Positions 30,901 to 40,149 of a DNA stretch of 56,734 bases are shown in pieces. Numbering within the stretch: position 1 is the stretch's first letter; every line of letters begins with the position of its first letter. The position numbers were made by a program, and so were the translations under genes. This DNA is from Candidatus Omnitrophota bacterium (GTDB lineage Bacteria > Omnitrophota > Gorgyraeia > Zapsychrales > Aceulaceae), in assembly GCA_028693815.1 (NCBI GenBank), contig JAQUUP010000012.1, forward strand, positions 1 to 56,734. Reading direction: 5' to 3'. The notes beneath the pieces are model-generated. The model did not search any database. It saw nothing but the letters and a program-made list of their open reading frames with translations, and was not told where the DNA came from.

Positions 30901-32418
30901 TTAAACTCTGTGGAGCTTCTTTGTTGCAAAACATGCATCCGTTGTCAAATTAACACCTAAGCGCCTTAAGCCCGCCTCATCTCCAGGTGTTGGAATATGC
31001 GTCATATGAACCTCGCACCCTTCTAATTCAGAAATTTTCTCAAGCGCTGCTTGAGCCATTGGGCTTGTCGCCGCACTCATACTTAACAAAATAAGAACTT
31101 CGTCAACATCAAGACTTACGCTTTTTGCTTTTAAAATATTTTTCCTAAAATTCGTCACAGAATCAATAATAGCAGGAGACAATAAATGAATTTTATCTGG
31201 AATACCAGATAAATGCTTAACGGCATTTAAAATCAAGCTTGAACCTGCATGCATGAGCGCCGTATTCTTTCCTGTTAAAATTGTTCCATCACCAAGCTCA
31301 ATAGCCGCTCCACAAAAAATGCCTTCATTTCCTTTCTTCTTTCTTTCCGCTTCTTTAGCAGCTTCTCTGGCCGGACCAACCACATTGCGATCGCTTGGGC
31401 GAACACAAAGTTCGTTCATAATCAATTCTGCTCGCTCCACTGTCTCTTGATCCTCAAGACCCATGAAATGTTCTGATTGACAACGAAAAAAACGACGGAT
31501 AACTTCTTGTTTAGCCGCCTCTTTAACCACTTCGTCGTTAATAATACCGAATCCAGCTCTATTAACACCCATATCCGTTGGTGATTTGTAAACAGTATCT
31601 TCTCCCATAATTTTTTCAAGGATTCTTCTAATAATGGGAAAAGCCTCAACATCACGATTATAGTTAATAGTCGGCTCTCCATGCGCCTCTAGATGAAAAG
31701 GATCGATCATATTAAAATCCTTTAAATCAGCCGTCGCTGCTTCATATGCAATATTAACAGGATGTTTCAAAGGAATGCTCCAAATTGGAAAAGTTTCAAA
31801 CTTTGCATATCCCGCTTTAATCCCCCGCTTATGCTCATGATAAACTTGCGAAAGGCAAGTAGCTAATTTCCCGCTTCCAGGACCCGGTCCAGTAATGATA
31901 ACAAGCTTATTTTTTGTCTCAATATATTCATTTGCGCCATAGCCTTCATCGCTAACAATAGAATTAACATCTGTGGGGTATCCCTTTGTAAAGCTGTGTG
32001 TGTAGACCCTAATTTTTAAACGCTCAAGCTTATCCTTAAAAATCTTTGCCGATGGCTGACCATTATAGCGAGTGATGACAACAGCTGAAATGTCAATTCC
32101 CCAATCCCTTAAATCATCAATCAACTTAAAGGCATCTGCATCATAAGTAATTCCAAAATCTGCTCTCATTTTTCGACGCTCAATATCACCTGCATAAATA
32201 CAAAGAATAAAATCAGCCTCATCTTTTAACTGCTTAAAAAGGCGCATTTTTACATTAGGGTCAAATCCTGGCAACACTCTTGATGCATGATAATCAAATA
32301 GAAGCTTACCGCCAAACTCAAGATAAAGCTTATTATCAAATTTAGATAATCGCTCTAAAATTGCAGCCTTTTGTTCATTGAGATATTTTTCGTTGTCAAA
32401 ACCAATCTTTTTCGGCAT
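30901..32418 (-). CDS. DUF1846 (UPF0371) family protein
   Basis: About 505 residues. It matches the DUF1846 family over its whole length: GFDNEKYLNEQ at the N-terminus, LEFGGKLLFDYHASRVLPGFDP in pieces, ITGPGPGSGKLATCLSQ (a P-loop-like turn), and the C-terminal LSMSAATSPMAQAALEKI. Structures exist for the family but its reaction is not established to my knowledge. The start at 32418 has AAAGGAG 6 bases upstream; an ATG at 32496 would run into the upstream gene. It lies 10 bases after the PurF-like gene, so the two are almost certainly cotranscribed and may share a pathway. Confidence 0.9.
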   Translation of the reverse strand: MPKKIGFDNEKYLNEQKAAILERLSKFDNKLYLEFGGKLLFDYHASRVLPGFDPNVKMRLFKQLKDEADFILCIYAGDIERRKMRADFGITYDADAFKLIDDLRDWGIDISAVVITRYNGQPSAKIFKDKLERLKIRVYTHSFTKGYPTDVNSIVSDEGYGANEYIETKNKLVIITGPGPGSGKLATCLSQVYHEHKRGIKAGYAKFETFPIWSIPLKHPVNIAYEAATADLKDFNMIDPFHLEAHGEPTINYNRDVEAFPIIRRILEKIMGEDTVYKSPTDMGVNRAGFGIINDEVVKEAAKQEVIRRFFRCQSEHFMGLEDQETVERAELIMNELCVRPSDRNVVGPAREAAKEAERKKKGNEGIFCGAAIELGDGTILTGKNTALMHAGSSLILNAVKHLSGIPDKIHLLSPAIIDSVTNFRKNILKAKSVSLDVDEVLILLSMSAATSPMAQAALEKISELEGCEVHMTHIPTPGDEAGLRRLGVNLTTDACFATKKLHRV

Positions 32419-32428
32419 AAAATCTCCT

Positions 32429-33832
32429 TTATTTTGGACACTTTCCATTCCAGCAATAGAGACATATTTTTTCTTTAGGCAACCCAATCGCTTCAATCAT
32501 ATCTTCAATTTTCTGATAACGAAGGGTTGTTACTCCCATATCTTTGACAATCCAATCCATCATTTTCTTATATTTTGAACTTTTATGATCTAAGTATTCT
32601 GAAACATCATCTAAATCCCTGCCTTCGATTGCCTTAATCGCCTTGCGAGCAATCAACTCAGAATGAGTTCTCGTTGATAAACAAAACCGGCACGGAAACA
32701 TTAAAGGTGGGCAAGCAGGTCTGGCGTGCACTTCTTTAGCGCCTGCATCCCAAAGTTTTTTAATTGCAAAATTCTTTAGCTGAGTTCCACGCACGATAGA
32801 ATCATCGCAAACAACAATCTTATTATTTCTTATAATATCAGCGACTGGTATCAGTTTCATGGTTGCAATCAAGTCTCTCTTCTTTTGAGTCGGTGGTGTA
32901 TAACTTCTGCCATATCCTGGGGTGTATTTTACTAGCGCTCTGCGATAAGGCTTACCAGATTCCATGGAATAGCCAATCGCATGCGCAATCCCAGAATCAG
33001 GAACACCGGTAACTAAGTCAGGATCAATGTCCGTGTCTTGTCGAGCCAAAGCTCTACCGCAACGTTCACGCACAACCTCTGTATTGATTCCCTCATACGT
33101 CGATGCTGGAAATCCTGTATAAATCCAATAAAACGAACATATCTGGTTAATCAAGCCACCCGCACGCTTATCCACAGGTCCATTTTCAGTTAAAAGAACA
33201 ATCTCTCCTGGAGCTAAAAATTTAACAACTTTAAATCCAAGATTAGGAAAAGATGTTGTTTCGCAGGCAACAAGCCATTCATTATCATTCTTACCTAAAA
33301 CTAAAGGCGTATATCCATACCGGTCTCGCGCAGCAAACACTCCTTCTTCGTTCAACAAAAGAAGCGAACATGATCCTTTGATCACATCGAACATTTTTTC
33401 GATGCCATCAATTAAATTGTCACCAAGACAAATAAGCTTCGCAATAAGTTCTGAAACATTAATCCCGCCCTTCGTAACCTCACTAAAGGAAACTCCTTTT
33501 TTAAACAAAATCTCCTTAAGCTCATCTTTATTTTCAATTAAACCCATGGCAACAACGCAAAATGGACCAAATTTAGAATTTAAATAAATTGGTTGCTCGT
33601 CAGAATCACTAATAACCCCGATTCCTTTTGATCCGCGCATGCCTCCGTTGCCTTCCGAAAACTTCGATTTAAATTGGCTTTCGCTAATGTTGTGGATGCG
33701 CCTAACAAAACCGTTTTCACCCAAAACCGCCATCCCCCCATACTCTGTTCCAAGATGAGAATGATAGTCTGTTGCATAAAACAAAGTTTGAACACAATCT
33801 TTTTTTGAAACAACACCAGCAATTCCACTCAT
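32429..33832 (-). CDS. PurF-like amidophosphoribosyltransferase paralogue with Ser in place of the catalytic Cys
   Basis: A 467-residue protein with the PurF layout. The glutaminase domain begins Met-Ser-Gly-Ile, where active PurF has Met-Cys-Gly-Ile and uses that Cys as nucleophile; the codon is AGT. The usual RYST and HNG glutamine-site motifs are also not recognisable. The phosphoribosyltransferase half is intact: PRPP loop VVCDDSIVRGT (340-350) and PDSGIAHAIGY. Four cysteines (232, 381, 457, 460) match the positions of the 4Fe-4S ligands of Bacillus-type PurF. It could use free ammonia or another amine, or have a different job. It follows carB by 80 bases and precedes DUF1846. AGGAG precedes the ATG. 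Confidence 0.88.
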   Translation of the reverse strand: MSGIAGVVSKKDCVQTLFYATDYHSHLGTEYGGMAVLGENGFVRRIHNISESQFKSKFSEGNGGMRGSKGIGVISDSDEQPIYLNSKFGPFCVVAMGLIENKDELKEILFKKGVSFSEVTKGGINVSELIAKLICLGDNLIDGIEKMFDVIKGSCSLLLLNEEGVFAARDRYGYTPLVLGKNDNEWLVACETTSFPNLGFKVVKFLAPGEIVLLTENGPVDKRAGGLINQICSFYWIYTGFPASTYEGINTEVVRERCGRALARQDTDIDPDLVTGVPDSGIAHAIGYSMESGKPYRRALVKYTPGYGRSYTPPTQKKRDLIATMKLIPVADIIRNNKIVVCDDSIVRGTQLKNFAIKKLWDAGAKEVHARPACPPLMFPCRFCLSTRTHSELIARKAIKAIEGRDLDDVSEYLDHKSSKYKKMMDWIVKDMGVTTLRYQKIEDMIEAIGLPKEKICLYCWNGKCPK

Positions 33833-33912: not shown

Positions 33913-36900
33913 TTATAGATTAAAATCTAGAATATCTTGATGATATTCTTGTAACGACTTTGGACCAATGTTTGCATTCTTTACAGATTCAATTCCGTCG
34001 ACGGTTGCTTGCGCAGCTGCAACAGAAGTCACATATGGAATCTTTTTCTGAATGGCTGTCATGCGAATATAGCTATCATCATATTTACTATTTTTTCCAA
34101 CCGGTGTATTAATGATCAAATCAAGCTCGCCATTTTTAATAGCATCAGCAATATTAGGTCTACCTTCATGCACTTTTTTAATCAAGCTATTTGGAATGCC
34201 TCGATTTGTTAAAAATTCACTGGTTCCTTCTGTTGCAAAAATCTTAAACTTAAGATCAATCAATTTTTTTGCAACACCAAAAAACGATTCTTTGTCATTT
34301 TGATTGACAGTTAAGAGAACATTTCCTTGCAAAGGCAGCTTTGATCCTGCGCATTCCTGAGCTTTATAAAATGCAAGACCAAATGTATCCGCCAATCCCA
34401 TAACCTCACCGGTTGCCCTCATTTCTGGACCAAGCAAAGGATCGACTTCAGGAAACATGTTGAACGGAAATACAGCTTCTTTAACGCCAACATAAGGGAT
34501 TTTCTTCTCTACAAGTTCAGGAAAATCACTAATCTTTTTTCCTAACATAAGTTGAGTTGCAATACGAGCAATCGGTATTCCATTTACCTTTGAAACAATG
34601 GGAACAGTTCGAGATGCTCGTGGATTTGCTTCCAAAATATAAACCTGATCATTAAATATAGCAAACTGAATATTCATCAAACCGACAACCTTTAACTCTT
34701 TTGCAATATCAGCTGTATATTTCTTTATTGTTTGAGCCTGATACTCAGTAATAGTTCGACTTGGAATCGAACAGGCTGAATCTCCAGAATGAACACCCGC
34801 AAGCTCAATATGTTCCATGATTGAAGCAACAAATGTTTCTTCTCCATCGCAAAGCGCATCTACCTCAAGCTCAATCGCGCGCTCGAGGAAGCGATCAATC
34901 AACATCGGATGCTCAGGGCTAACATCAATCGCCTCAAGAGCATATTTTCTAAGCGCTTTCTCATCATAAATAATTTCCATCCCTCGACCCCCAAGAACAT
35001 ACGACGGTCTGACCATTAAGGGATATCCGATTCTTTTAGAAATTTTAAGAGCCTGATCCAATGATCTGGCTGTATCGCTTTCAGGCTGAGGAATGCCTAT
35101 CTTAATCATTTTCTTTCTGAAATTCTCACGGTCCTCTGCCAGATGAATACTTTCAGGTGTCGTGCCAAGAATATTGACTCCATAATCTTTAAGCTCTTGT
35201 GCAATATTTAGCGGTGTCTGACCGCCAAATTGAACAATAACTCCGTCTGGTTTTTCTTTTTCATAAATATTTAAGACATCTTCAACCGTTAGTGGCTCAA
35301 AATATAATTTGTCAGACGTGTCATAATCCGTAGAAACAGTTTCGGGATTACAATTGACCATAATCGTTTCATACCCTGCATCCCGCAAAGCAAAAGCCGC
35401 ATGAACACACGTATAATCAAACTCAATACCCTGACCGATGCGATTAGGTCCACCGCCCAAAATCATGATTTTCTTATTTGCTGAAACAGACACCTTGTCT
35501 TCAATATCTCGATAAGTCGAATAATAATATGCTGCATTCTCAACACCGCTCACAGGAACAGCCTCATAAGAAGCTATTTTATTTAACTTAATGCGTCTTG
35601 TGCGAACCTCTCTTTCGCTAACCTTAAAAAGTCCAGCTAAATACTTATCTGCAAATCCCCATTCTTTGGCCTGGATAAATTTCTCATCAGGCAAATTCTT
35701 AAATTTCAACTTTATAATTTCTTGCTCAAAATCAACTAACTCTTTTATCTCATTCAAGAAATATGCTCCTATTTTTGTCATCTTATGAAGCTCATCTATG
35801 CTCAAGCCTTTGCGCAAAGCTTCATACATTAAGAAGACTCTCTCGCTAGATGGAAATGCCAAACGTTGTTTTAATTCTCCCAGGGAGAGCTTGTTAAAAT
35901 TCTTTGCAAACCCGAGACCGTATCGTTTTATTTCAAGCGAGCGAATGGCTTTTAAAAATGATTCTTTAAACGTTTTTCCAATACTCATAACCTCGCCTAC
36001 AGCTTTCATTTGTGTCCCTAAAATATCAGTCGCCTGAGGAAATTTTTCAAACGCCCATCGCGCAAACTTAATAACAACATAATCCCCGCTTGGTGTATAT
36101 TTTTCAAGAGTACCATCTCTCCAATATGGAATCTCATCCATTGTAATACCAGACGCGAGTTTTGTTGAAATGCGTGCAATCGGAAACCCTGTTGCTTTTG
36201 AGGCCAGAGCCGAAGACCTAGAAGTTCGAGGATTAATCTCAATAACAACCAAACGATCTGTTTCGCGATTATATGCAAACTGGACATTGGTTCCACCCAC
36301 AACACCAATGGCGTCAACAATGTCATACGAAATTTTCTGAAGTTTTTTCTGAAGCTCTACCGGAACCGTTAACATTGGAGCTGAGCAAAAACTATCACCC
36401 GTATGAACACCCATAGGATCAATATTTTCAATAAAACACACTGTAATCTTCTGATTCTTTTCGTCGCGAACAACCTCTAGCTCAAGCTCTTCCCAGCCTA
36501 AAACAGATTCCTCAATTAAAACCTGACCAACCATGCTTGCCGATAACCCTCTAGCAGAAATCGTCCTTAATTCCTCAACATTATACGCAATGCCACCACC
36601 TGTTCCACCCATCGTATAAGCTGGGCGGATAACAACAGGATATCCGAGATTTTCTGCAATTTTCTCCGCTTCCTCAATAGAAAGAGCTGGTTCCGATAGC
36701 GGCATTTCAACGCCAACTTTCTTCATTGTTGCCTTAAACTCAATGCGGTCTTCGCCCCGTTCAATCGCATCCGGCTTAACTCCAATAATTTTAACATTAT
36801 GCTTTTTTAAGACCCCTTTTTTATGTAATATCGAAGAAAGGTTTAGCCCTGTCTGACCCCCCAGATTAGGCAAAAGCGCATCCGGTTTTTCTTTTTCTAT

Positions 36901-37131
36901 AATTTTCTCAATCATTTCAGCAGTAAGAGGCTCGATATAAGTTTTATCAGCCATTTCTGGGTCAGTCATAATTGTCGCGGGATTTGAATTAACAAGGACA
37001 ACCTCGTAGCCTTCTTCTCTGAGCGCTTTACATGCCTGTGTCCCAGAATAATCGAATTCGCAAGCCTGACCGATGATAATAGGACCAGAACCAATAATTA
37101 AAACTTTTTTGATGTCTTTTCTGCTGGGCAT
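33913..37131 (-). CDS. carB: Carbamoyl phosphate synthase, large subunit
   Basis: Makes carbamoyl phosphate from ammonia, bicarbonate and 2 ATP for pyrimidines and arginine. The 1072 residues show the internal duplication: two ATP-grasp halves, each with its own N-terminal motif (VLIIGSGPIIIGQACEFDY in pieces at the start; GGGPNRIGQGIEFDY at about 560) and PAYTMGGTGGG / PSYVLGGRGME. The C-terminal MGS-like allosteric domain (about 940-1072) is complete. The small glutaminase subunit gene carA is not adjacent. AAGGAG precedes the ATG. Its promoter overlaps the hcp terminator. Confidence 0.98.
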   Translation of the reverse strand: MPSRKDIKKVLIIGSGPIIIGQACEFDYSGTQACKALREEGYEVVLVNSNPATIMTDPEMADKTYIEPLTAEMIEKIIEKEKPDALLPNLGGQTGLNLSSILHKKGVLKKHNVKIIGVKPDAIERGEDRIEFKATMKKVGVEMPLSEPALSIEEAEKIAENLGYPVVIRPAYTMGGTGGGIAYNVEELRTISARGLSASMVGQVLIEESVLGWEELELEVVRDEKNQKITVCFIENIDPMGVHTGDSFCSAPMLTVPVELQKKLQKISYDIVDAIGVVGGTNVQFAYNRETDRLVVIEINPRTSRSSALASKATGFPIARISTKLASGITMDEIPYWRDGTLEKYTPSGDYVVIKFARWAFEKFPQATDILGTQMKAVGEVMSIGKTFKESFLKAIRSLEIKRYGLGFAKNFNKLSLGELKQRLAFPSSERVFLMYEALRKGLSIDELHKMTKIGAYFLNEIKELVDFEQEIIKLKFKNLPDEKFIQAKEWGFADKYLAGLFKVSEREVRTRRIKLNKIASYEAVPVSGVENAAYYYSTYRDIEDKVSVSANKKIMILGGGPNRIGQGIEFDYTCVHAAFALRDAGYETIMVNCNPETVSTDYDTSDKLYFEPLTVEDVLNIYEKEKPDGVIVQFGGQTPLNIAQELKDYGVNILGTTPESIHLAEDRENFRKKMIKIGIPQPESDTARSLDQALKISKRIGYPLMVRPSYVLGGRGMEIIYDEKALRKYALEAIDVSPEHPMLIDRFLERAIELEVDALCDGEETFVASIMEHIELAGVHSGDSACSIPSRTITEYQAQTIKKYTADIAKELKVVGLMNIQFAIFNDQVYILEANPRASRTVPIVSKVNGIPIARIATQLMLGKKISDFPELVEKKIPYVGVKEAVFPFNMFPEVDPLLGPEMRATGEVMGLADTFGLAFYKAQECAGSKLPLQGNVLLTVNQNDKESFFGVAKKLIDLKFKIFATEGTSEFLTNRGIPNSLIKKVHEGRPNIADAIKNGELDLIINTPVGKNSKYDDSYIRMTAIQKKIPYVTSVAAAQATVDGIESVKNANIGPKSLQEYHQDILDFNL

Positions 37132-37254: not shown

Positions 37255-38883
37255 TTAATTTCCAGCCATCATTGCCGCGACGTCTGCTTCAGCATCCCCA
37301 ATCGACTTGATATCAAATTTCTCAACCAAAACATTAACAACATTCGGCGATAAAAATGCTGGGATCGTTGGACCCAAGCGAATCTTTTTAACACCTAAAA
37401 ACAAAAGAGCCAAAAGAACGCAGACAGCTTTTTGCTCGTACCAAGCAATATCAAATGAAATAGGAAGATCATTGATATCATCTAGCTCAAAGACTTCCTT
37501 TAGCTTTAAAGCAACAACAGCCAATGAATAAGAATCATTACATTGACCAGCATCTAAAACACGAGGAATACCATCGATATCTCCCAAAGGAAGCTTGTTG
37601 TATCGATATTTTGCGCATCCCGCTGTTAAGATAACTGTATCTTTTGGAAGTTTTTCAGCAACCTCAGTAAAATAACTTCTTGATTTCTGACGTCCATCAC
37701 ATCCACCCATGACAATAAAACGCTTAATCTTGCCTTCTTTAATCGCACCAACAACTTTATCCGCAAGTGCCAGAATTTGCTTGTGTGCAAAACCACCAAC
37801 AATCTCTCCTGTTTCAATTTCTACAGGAGCTTCACATTTCTTAGCCAAATCAACAATAGCAGAAAAATCTTTTTTTCCACCATCTTCTGGATCGGCAATA
37901 TGTGTTGTTCCCGGATAACCTGCCATGCCTGTTGTGAAAATGCGTTCTTTGTATGCCTCTTGAACAGGCGTAATGCAGTTTGTCGTCATTAAGATAGGTC
38001 CATTAAACGAAGCAAATTCTTTATTTTGATTCCACCAAGAACTTCCGTAATTTCCAACAAGATGATTATATTTCTTAAACTCTGGATAATAATTTGCCGG
38101 AAGCATCTCACTATGAGTATAAACATCAACGCCTGCATTCTCTGTTTGCTTCAAAAGCTCTTCCATGTCCTTCATGTCGTGACCTGAAATTAAAATTCCA
38201 GGGTTTTTTCGAACACCAATATTAACCTTTGTTAATTCCGGTGACCCATATTTAGATGTGTTTGCCTCATCTAAAAGTGCCATTGCCTGAACAGAGAAAT
38301 CTCCAGCTTTTAAAACAAGGGCAACCATCTCGTCAACTGATAAATTAACTGTTGTCGATGCAAGTGCCTCGGCAACAAAATTATAAATATCTATCTTTTC
38401 TTTTCCTAAAATAGAAGCATGATCCGCATAAGCTGCGACACCTTTAAGTCCATAGACTAAAAGCTCTCGCAAAGAACGAACATCTTCGTTTTTTGTTGCT
38501 AAAACTCCAACTTCAGCTGCTTTTGTAGAAAAATCAGCTTCATTTCCAACCCAAACAACTGAGTCATGAAGCCCATCTAAAGAACCATTATATTTTTTCT
38601 TTAATCCATCTCTCAATATCAAAGCTTCCTTAATAAGCGCAACAAATCTTGCATCATCAAAGTTAGCATTTGTAATTGTTGCAAAAAGTCCTCGACTTAA
38701 GAATCGCCCAACCTCGTTATTCAAAAGACCTTGCTCTTTTCCTTTAACGCAGACAACTGAAATTCCCTTTAAAACATAAATAAGTAAATCCTGAAGATTT
38801 GCTGTTGGCTCTTTTTTTCCACAAACTCCACCTATTGTACATCCTGTATTTCCTGCTGTTTCCTGACATTGATAACAAAACAT
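37255..38883 (-). CDS. hcp: Hybrid-cluster protein (class I, hydroxylamine/NO reductase)
   Basis: About 542 residues from the ATG at 38883, which has AGAGGTG upstream; an ATG at 38922 extends into the previous gene. The N-terminal cysteines ([11 protein letters not shown], then CTIGGVC; spacing C-x2-C-x8-C-x5-C) are those of the anaerobe-type class I enzyme with a 4Fe-4S cluster. The hybrid-cluster ligands are in the [18 protein letters not shown] and LDAGQCND segments. The protein reduces NO or hydroxylamine in nitrosative stress. It is the last gene of the Rrf2-ferredoxin-hcp operon and is closed by a strong terminator. Confidence 0.97.
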
Positions 38884-38902
38884 CTTTTCACCTCTTTCTT
38901 TC

Positions 38903-39745
38903 TTAAATAACTCTCCCGTCAATCGAGATCGTATATTCTTTAATAATGATATTTTTACCTGATTGCTTTAATGCCTCCAGAGCAATATTAACCGTTGCCG
39001 AACAACATGGAACTTCCATGTGAACAATCGTCAAAGAGTTTATGTCTTGAGTCTTAAAAATATTAGCAAGTTTCTCAACATATTGATGGTTTGACTGATC
39101 AAGTTTTGGGCAAAAAATAGCCAATTTTTTGCCCTTTAAAAAACGCTGATGAAAGTTGGGATACGCAAATGGAACGCAATCCGCGGCAATCAAAAGATCT
39201 GCGCCTTTCAAATATGGGGCTTGAGGATTCAACAAATGCAATTCAATCGGCCATTGCTGAAGTTGAGGTTCAATTTCAACATTCGGGCTGTCGACATTCG
39301 CCTTTTGCCGATTACTTAAATCCATCATTTTTGATCCAGGGCACCCACCTTGAGCATGAGCATGCGATTCATGATGCTGTTGCTGCATTTCATCAATAAT
39401 ATCACTCATGCCTTTTTCCTTTAAGATTTCTTTCGCTTGTTCCAAATAATCTGCTTGGTTATGCTGTTTTAAATGTTTCAAGTGGGCTTTAATAACGCCC
39501 TTTCCTTGGATTACAATATTCTCCATAGTCTTAGCCTCATCATAGGCAACAGCTTCTCTTTCTTCAATGGCAATCGCTCCCGCAGGGCACTCCCCGATAC
39601 AAGCCCCTAATCCATCACAATAAAGCTCGCTAACAAGCCTTGCCTTTCCATCAATCATCTGAATGGCTCCTTCGGGACACCCTTCGGCGCAAAGCCCACA
39701 TCCATTGCATCTATCATCATCAATTTTTATAATTTTTCTTTTCAT
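38903..39745 (-). CDS. Ferredoxin-type 4Fe-4S protein with His-rich linker (hcp partner)
   Basis: A 280-residue protein. The N-terminus has two 4Fe-4S sites ([12 protein letters not shown] and [12 protein letters not shown]). A helical linker follows with a His-rich patch ([15 protein letters not shown]) that could bind metal. The C-terminal about 120 residues are a soluble alpha/beta domain ([33 protein letters not shown]-like) seen in hcp-linked iron-sulfur proteins. It likely passes electrons to Hcp. Its start overlaps the regulator's stop by four bases (ATGA), and hcp begins 19 bases after its stop. Confidence 0.87.
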
Positions 39746-40149
39746 TTCTGCCCCTTCATCAAACTTGCGATCGTTACTTTGTTAAGCCGGCTTGAAACTG
39801 ACTTCTCAATTCCTTTAATTTCTTTTCTCAAAGGACAAGTGCCGACATTTAAACAAATCTTTTTTTTAAAAAGGCATTGTGAAAAATTAATCTTACCCTG
39901 AAAAATTTCTATAATTTCAGATAAAAAAATCTTATTTGGATTCTTTAAAAGCAAAAACCCACCCTTATTCCCTTTGACAGATCCTAAAATTTTATTTTTC
40001 TGTAAACTTTGCAAAATCTTTCTTAAAAAAGGCCTCGGAATACCCAAATCCCGCTCGAGATCAAGACTTGAATTTAAATTTCCTTGTCTTTGAAAAAGAA
40101 AAATAATCGCTCGGATTGCATAATCTGTATCTCTATTCAATAAATTCAT
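39742..40149 (-). CDS. Rrf2-family transcriptional regulator, probable Fe-S/NO sensor
   Basis: A 135-residue Rrf2 protein: N-terminal winged helix (NRDTDYAIRAIIFLF, PRPFLRKILQSLQK, GSVKGNKGGFLL) and a C-terminal Cys trio (QCLFKKKICLNVGTC) that in relatives such as NsrR/IscR holds an iron-sulfur cluster. It probably senses NO or redox state and represses its own operon, which encodes Hcp. A perfect palindrome sits in its promoter. The ATG has no Shine-Dalgarno and lies at the predicted transcription start, so the mRNA is probably leaderless. Confidence 0.93.
   Translation of the reverse strand: MNLLNRDTDYAIRAIIFLFQRQGNLNSSLDLERDLGIPRPFLRKILQSLQKNKILGSVKGNKGGFLLLKNPNKIFLSEIIEIFQGKINFSQCLFKKKICLNVGTCPLRKEIKGIEKSVSSRLNKVTIASLMKGQK

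Follow-up and report, generated by a model that had tools for sequence, protein, structure and literature searches.

A Cys-less PurF paralogue that may use ammonia, and its co-occurrence with DUF1846 in Omnitrophota

Purine synthesis is thought to begin with glutamine. What, then, is the role of a PurF-family protein whose glutaminase domain appears inactive and whose PRPP and Fe-S sites are kept? The question is raised by a gene (32429–33832, minus strand; 467 aa) on a contig of a Candidatus Omnitrophota bacterium (JAQUUP010000012.1; 56,734 nucleotides, analysed whole and called the window). The source genome (1.9 Mb, 96.5% complete) has Ca. Aceula lacicola as its nearest named relative. In the translated open reading frame, the N-terminus of the protein reads MSGIAGVVSKKDC. 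We refer to this Cys-less protein as PurF2, a name coined in this analysis.

Locus and residue pattern of PurF2

PurF2 is a paralogue, because a normal Cys-type purF (MCGIVGV, 457 aa) is present on another contig of the source genome, in the order gltB-gltD-carA-carB-purF-pyrG (gltB, gltD and pyrG named from sequence). The initial annotation of the locus had proposed looking for such a gene, and had named a genome with PurF2 as its only PurF as one that would speak against its reading; the source genome is not of that kind. As that annotation also stated, PurF2 adjoins carB and a DUF1846 gene; it sits between them, and all three are on the same strand. The gene for the DUF1846 / UPF0371 protein (30901–32418, minus strand; 505 aa, with matches to the family profiles) starts 10 bp downstream, and carB, for the large subunit of carbamoyl-phosphate synthase (33913–37131, minus strand), lies 80 bp upstream. 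This carB is the second copy in the genome, and no carA adjoins it.

Farther upstream and in the same direction, the window encodes a hydroxylamine reductase (hybrid cluster protein; 37255–38880, minus strand), whose membership of the unit is uncertain, along with a ferredoxin-like protein and an Rrf2 regulator (37255–40149 for the set). The related locus L024 has a gene placed like the hydroxylamine reductase, and similar genes upstream to the rest of the set. Nitrogen or redox control of a carB-PurF2-DUF1846 unit is possible.

We aligned 56 PurF2 relatives with 19 Cys-type PurFs. At the position of the catalytic Cys (codon 2; 33827–33829, minus strand), the window has Ser (AGT) and the relatives have Ser (49/56), Gly (6/56) or Asp (1/56), with Cys in 0/56. 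The canonical glutamine-binding R-Y-S-T-T-G loop is deleted at codons 70–81 of the window protein (GIGVISDSDEQP; 33590–33625, minus strand); the R-Y-x-T-x-G segment is likewise deleted, and the glutamine-binding Asp replaced, in 56/56 relatives. Thus, the earlier observation that residue 2 is Ser and that the glutamine-site motifs are gone extends to the whole set. We considered Ser2 as a working nucleophile and found this unlikely: the position is not constant (Ser, Gly, Asp), and nothing else of the glutamine site remains. Judging from these residues, glutamine use by PurF2 looks impossible, even where PurF2 is the sole PurF. The dead domain has acquired strongly conserved motifs of its own (DYHSHLG, QFKSKF and Cys13). 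Cys13, at codon 13 and distinct from the catalytic position, is invariant in 56/56 relatives.

In the PRTase half, DSIVRGT of the PRPP loop (codons 343–352, DDSIVRGTQL; 32777–32806, minus strand), PDSG, and four residues in the region of the flexible loop (Arg, Gln, Arg, Lys) were kept in 54–56 of the 56 aligned relatives. Four cysteines, putative Fe-S ligands, were also retained: Cys232 (33137–33139; 55/56), Cys381 (32690–32692; 55/56) and Cys457-x-x-Cys460 (32453–32464; 56/56 and 55/56), all on the minus strand. Both features had been noted from the window sequence and hold across the relatives. Other positions in this half have changed and are fixed. Where canonical PurF has the second Thr of GTT, 56/56 relatives have Gln (Gln351 in the window protein), the flexible-loop Tyr is Gly or Thr, and one residue is inserted in that loop.

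At the level of the whole protein, the TIGR01134 purF profile matched residues 3–415 with 215.9 bits, under its equivalog cut-off of 350. PurF2 matched B. subtilis PurF (1gph) with an E-value of 6e-52, and related glutaminases more weakly. The predicted model (pLDDT 89) superposed over its full length on B. subtilis and E. coli PurF (TM 0.84), and its low-confidence regions were mostly the flexible and PRPP loops.

Loss of the catalytic residue could in itself reflect a decaying copy or a sequence error, and an error in the AGT codon had been named early on as something that would undo the reading. We regard this as practically excluded: L024 has the same AGT codon, no relative has Cys (56/56, over many phyla), dN/dS between the window gene and that of L024 (91% identical) is 0.048, and the clade has 100/100 support. 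The dN/dS values for the two halves are equal (0.048 and 0.047), showing purifying selection on both, so the dead domain must still serve some purpose.

Spread, gene context and loss of purF

PurF2 sequences (61 tree rows) form a single clade (support 100/100), with long branches between it and Cys-type PurF. We found at least 577 relatives in bacteria and archaea, including Omnitrophota, Planctomycetota, Thermodesulfobacteriota, Elusimicrobiota, Bacteroidota, Bacillota, Thermoplasmatota, Lokiarchaeota and others; named carriers are Peptoclostridium acidaminophilum DSM 3953, Bacteroides finegoldii and Parabacteroides distasonis. The Cys-less Bacteroides-type relatives that the initial annotation mentioned are real. 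One PurF2 gene (L164:5001–6377; MSGFFGVAAKDDC..., 46% identical) lies near an HNH-like ORF on an 83 kb IMG/VR viral contig, and is possibly a phage-borne copy, the contig being viral by its IMG/VR listing.

Two other genomes stand out for their PurF matches. In G105, the only PurF found is an intermediate (L214:6645–8024) that keeps the Cys, lacks the R-Y-x-T loop, has GTQ and groups on the PurF2 side; it is flanked by glutamate dehydrogenase on one side and carA-carB-purL on the other. Because Met takes the place of its PPi-loop Asp, we did not use it as evidence on catalysis. G200 has purM, purL and DUF1846, a weak best purF match (6.5e-55) and no PurF2 at 1e-90; its PurF may be of a third type, or the gene may be broken.

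Across phyla, the neighbours of PurF2 are purL, purQ, purM, purD, purE, guaA, carA, carB and purF. One Omnitrophota lineage has the order purL-LOG-purQ-PurF2-[purF]-purM-purD-purE, Planctomycetota have purF-purM-PurF2, a Lokiarchaeon has PurF2 adjoining purF, a Clostridia MAG has it after carA-carB, and further genomes have it together with carB and DUF1846. The pur operons of several Omnitrophota (L144, L145, L209 and L210) contain or adjoin a LOG-family-like gene, named from sequence (purL-LOG-purQ). In Bacteroidota and Peptoclostridium, pepT directly follows PurF2, and in Bacteroidota gcvT comes next. Glutamate dehydrogenase, an ammonia user, is found next to PurF2-type genes, or next to the cluster that holds them, in a few contexts (G122, L080 and G105), in contrast to the Cys-type purF of G000 and G001, which lies beside gltBD. 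The initial annotation had suggested a possible undescribed pathway; instead, the pur, car and guaA neighbours assign PurF2 to the ordinary de novo synthesis of nucleotides. Moreover, a Cys-less PurF' near purF has already been described in Crenarchaeota (PMC3261824).

Can PurF2 stand in for PurF? Most PurF2 genomes (44/54) also have a Cys-type purF, often as the adjacent gene, so we rejected the idea that PurF2 is solely a replacement. The other 10 of the 54 lack Cys-type purF (G105 with its intermediate included), and purM is present in 7 of the remaining 9. The clearest case is G122 (97% complete), which shares the order carB-DUF1846-PurF2-..-mnmG-guaA-lpxB with L089. L089 has purF between guaA and lpxB, whereas in G122 it is cleanly absent (about 46 bp left). 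The rest of the G122 genome yielded no Cys-type purF either, though it keeps purL, purB, purM, purD and purE. Similarly, G165 (purQ-PurF2-purM) and G141 (LOG-PurF2-purM) have PurF2 within pur clusters, and Cys-type purF was not found in either genome.

Among PurF2 genomes that are at least 97% complete, 4/10 lack purF, and all four have purM and purL; incompleteness would be expected to give about 0.3 such absences (binomial p = 1.5e-4). Compared with PurF2-negative genomes (0/9), the loss is borderline (Fisher p = 0.054), and these are draft genomes. Genomes with purM and without Cys-type purF number 7 with PurF2 and 4 without it (G105 left out). The genome-wide statistics for replacement are thus weak. 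Taken with the individual loci, gene content is suggestive of PurF2 having replaced purF in some lineages.

Other genomes depart from this pattern. G162 (93% complete) has PurF2 and DUF1846 and lacks purM, purL and purF, so PurF2 may also serve some purpose other than making purines de novo. G072 lacks purM and has purL and purD, perhaps through assembly errors. An apparent purine auxotroph with PurF2 (G156, 2 contigs) was set aside; its purL match runs into an open frame of 24,675 residues, probably sequence read as N.

Candidate functions of PurF2

Since PurF2 has lost the glutamine site but not the PRTase site, the simplest reading is ammonia-dependent synthesis of phosphoribosylamine. PurF2 would then be an ammonia-using PRPP aminotransferase that backs up or replaces PurF, an assignment to which we give slightly less than an even chance. 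The PRTase domain would combine PRPP with free ammonia, or with ammonia passed on by a partner, to form 5-phosphoribosylamine, and the former glutaminase domain would be retained for structure or ligand sensing. In most genomes PurF2 would back up the glutamine-dependent PurF, and in some it would have taken over. In Omnitrophota, it would work with DUF1846, and often with a CarB, in nucleotide supply. We infer the catalysis, the ammonia donor and the role of DUF1846 alike. The initial annotation had listed free ammonia among the possible substrates, and the loss of one site with retention of the other supports it as the likely donor. The three lineages in which glutamate dehydrogenase neighbours PurF2-type genes or their cluster agree with this as well. 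There is also a precedent, in that E. coli PurF with Cys1 replaced is described in PMC3261824 as losing glutamine use and keeping ammonia use.

The fixed PRTase changes (Gln for Thr after GT, Gly for Tyr, and the one-residue insertion) speak against a plain ammonia reading and could mean another acceptor or altered use of PRPP. Together with the frequent coexistence of purF, they leave room for a regulatory or an other-acceptor role. In the former, PurF2 would be a non- or weakly catalytic partner that joins PurF in a mixed oligomer, or joins another enzyme, and whose PRTase site senses PRPP or nucleotides, tuning purine and pyrimidine flux. The presence of Cys-type purF in 44/54 genomes, the clustering with carB besides pur genes, and the conservation of a dead domain with new invariant motifs would all suit such a partner. 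However, most PRPP-site residues are fully kept, and PurF2 occurs in genomes whose pur pathway is intact apart from a missing purF, G122 with its clean absence among them; we consider a regulatory role unlikely, if well worth keeping in view. Somewhat less probable still is a phosphoribosyltransferase for a different amine (e.g. an amino acid amide or another small amine), whose product would differ and would belong to nucleotide metabolism or to a pathway next to it. This would account for PRPP and flexible loop changes that are fixed in 56/56 relatives, for pepT (then gcvT in Bacteroidota) rather than pur genes following PurF2 in Bacteroidota and Peptoclostridium, and for the survival of PurF2 in G162 without purM or purL. 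It sits poorly with the pur-operon context in several phyla, and with the loss of purF where the pathway is otherwise complete.

DUF1846 and known relatives

The DUF1846 protein of the window is a full member of UPF0371 / DUF1846 (3bh1, 7f00, SPD_0310), scoring 753.2 bits against the PRK13663 NCBIfam equivalog (cut-off 631) and containing PF08903 and PF20921. Its presence tracks that of PurF2. Among order-level relatives, DUF1846 occurs in 13/15 genomes with PurF2 (window genome counted) vs. 1/39 without (Fisher 1.3e-9). Across 115 Omnitrophota genomes with a completeness of 93% or more, 51 have both, 3 PurF2 only, 6 DUF1846 only and 55 neither, so that 106/115 agree (Fisher 5e-22). Families in which PurF2 varies gave 32, 0, 5 and 25 in the same order, and none of 20,000 within-family shuffles matched the observed agreement; shared ancestry at family level thus does not explain the co-occurrence. 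Outside Omnitrophota the link is loose, and DUF1846 was not found in PurF2-bearing Thermoplasmata and Lokiarchaeota genomes. The suggestion that DUF1846 is a conserved partner therefore stands for Omnitrophota and fails as a universal rule. DUF1846 also adjoins Cys-type purF, guaA, purL and carB.

A structure search with DUF1846 returned its own family only, the next matches being weak. Hemin binding has been proposed for the family (PMC9238395), and DUF1846 is essential in C. difficile without an assigned pathway (PMC12548448); unlike that earlier UPF0371 work, our analysis links it with genes of nucleotide synthesis and with a paralogue of PurF. PurF2 and DUF1846 might form an unrecognised two-protein module, common in Omnitrophota and with PurF2 extending well past that phylum. 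Such a module would supply nucleotide synthesis with free ammonia as the nitrogen source, and DUF1846 would act in nucleotide metabolism, though we find this proposal as a whole rather doubtful.

PurF2 resembles canonical PurF (TIGR01134; 1ao0, 1gph, 1ecb) in its full-length fold, PRTase residues and purine operon context, and the B. subtilis type in its Fe-S cysteines, where the PurF2 cluster is putative. It differs in having no Cys nucleophile, glutamine-binding loop or Asp, in its altered PRPP and flexible loops, in its separate clade and in its sub-cut-off TIGR01134 score. A closer parallel, compared here by its published description, is PurF' of Crenarchaeota (Biol Direct 2011; PMC3261824), a Cys-less paralogue clustered with purF and pur genes for which an ammonia-dependent role was suggested. 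The general Cys-less, ammonia-using idea is therefore not new. At the nucleophile position, Ala or Val is frequent in PurF', whereas PurF2 has Ser, Gly or Asp, and the window PurF2 neighbours carB and DUF1846 rather than pur genes. The literature we searched held no description of the bacterial PurF2 clade or its DUF1846 link. As far as that search reaches, the large, mostly bacterial clade is new, as are the pattern of residues that marks it, its co-occurrence with DUF1846 and the genomes in which purF has been lost.

Database records label PurF2 as amidophosphoribosyltransferase, so metabolic models built on them may be wrong. If the ammonia reading is true, PurF2 would provide a glutamine-free entry to purine synthesis, through a widespread PurF clade that apparently replaces PurF in some lineages. 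For the unsolved DUF1846 family, near-perfect co-occurrence with PurF2 in Omnitrophota gives a concrete candidate pathway.
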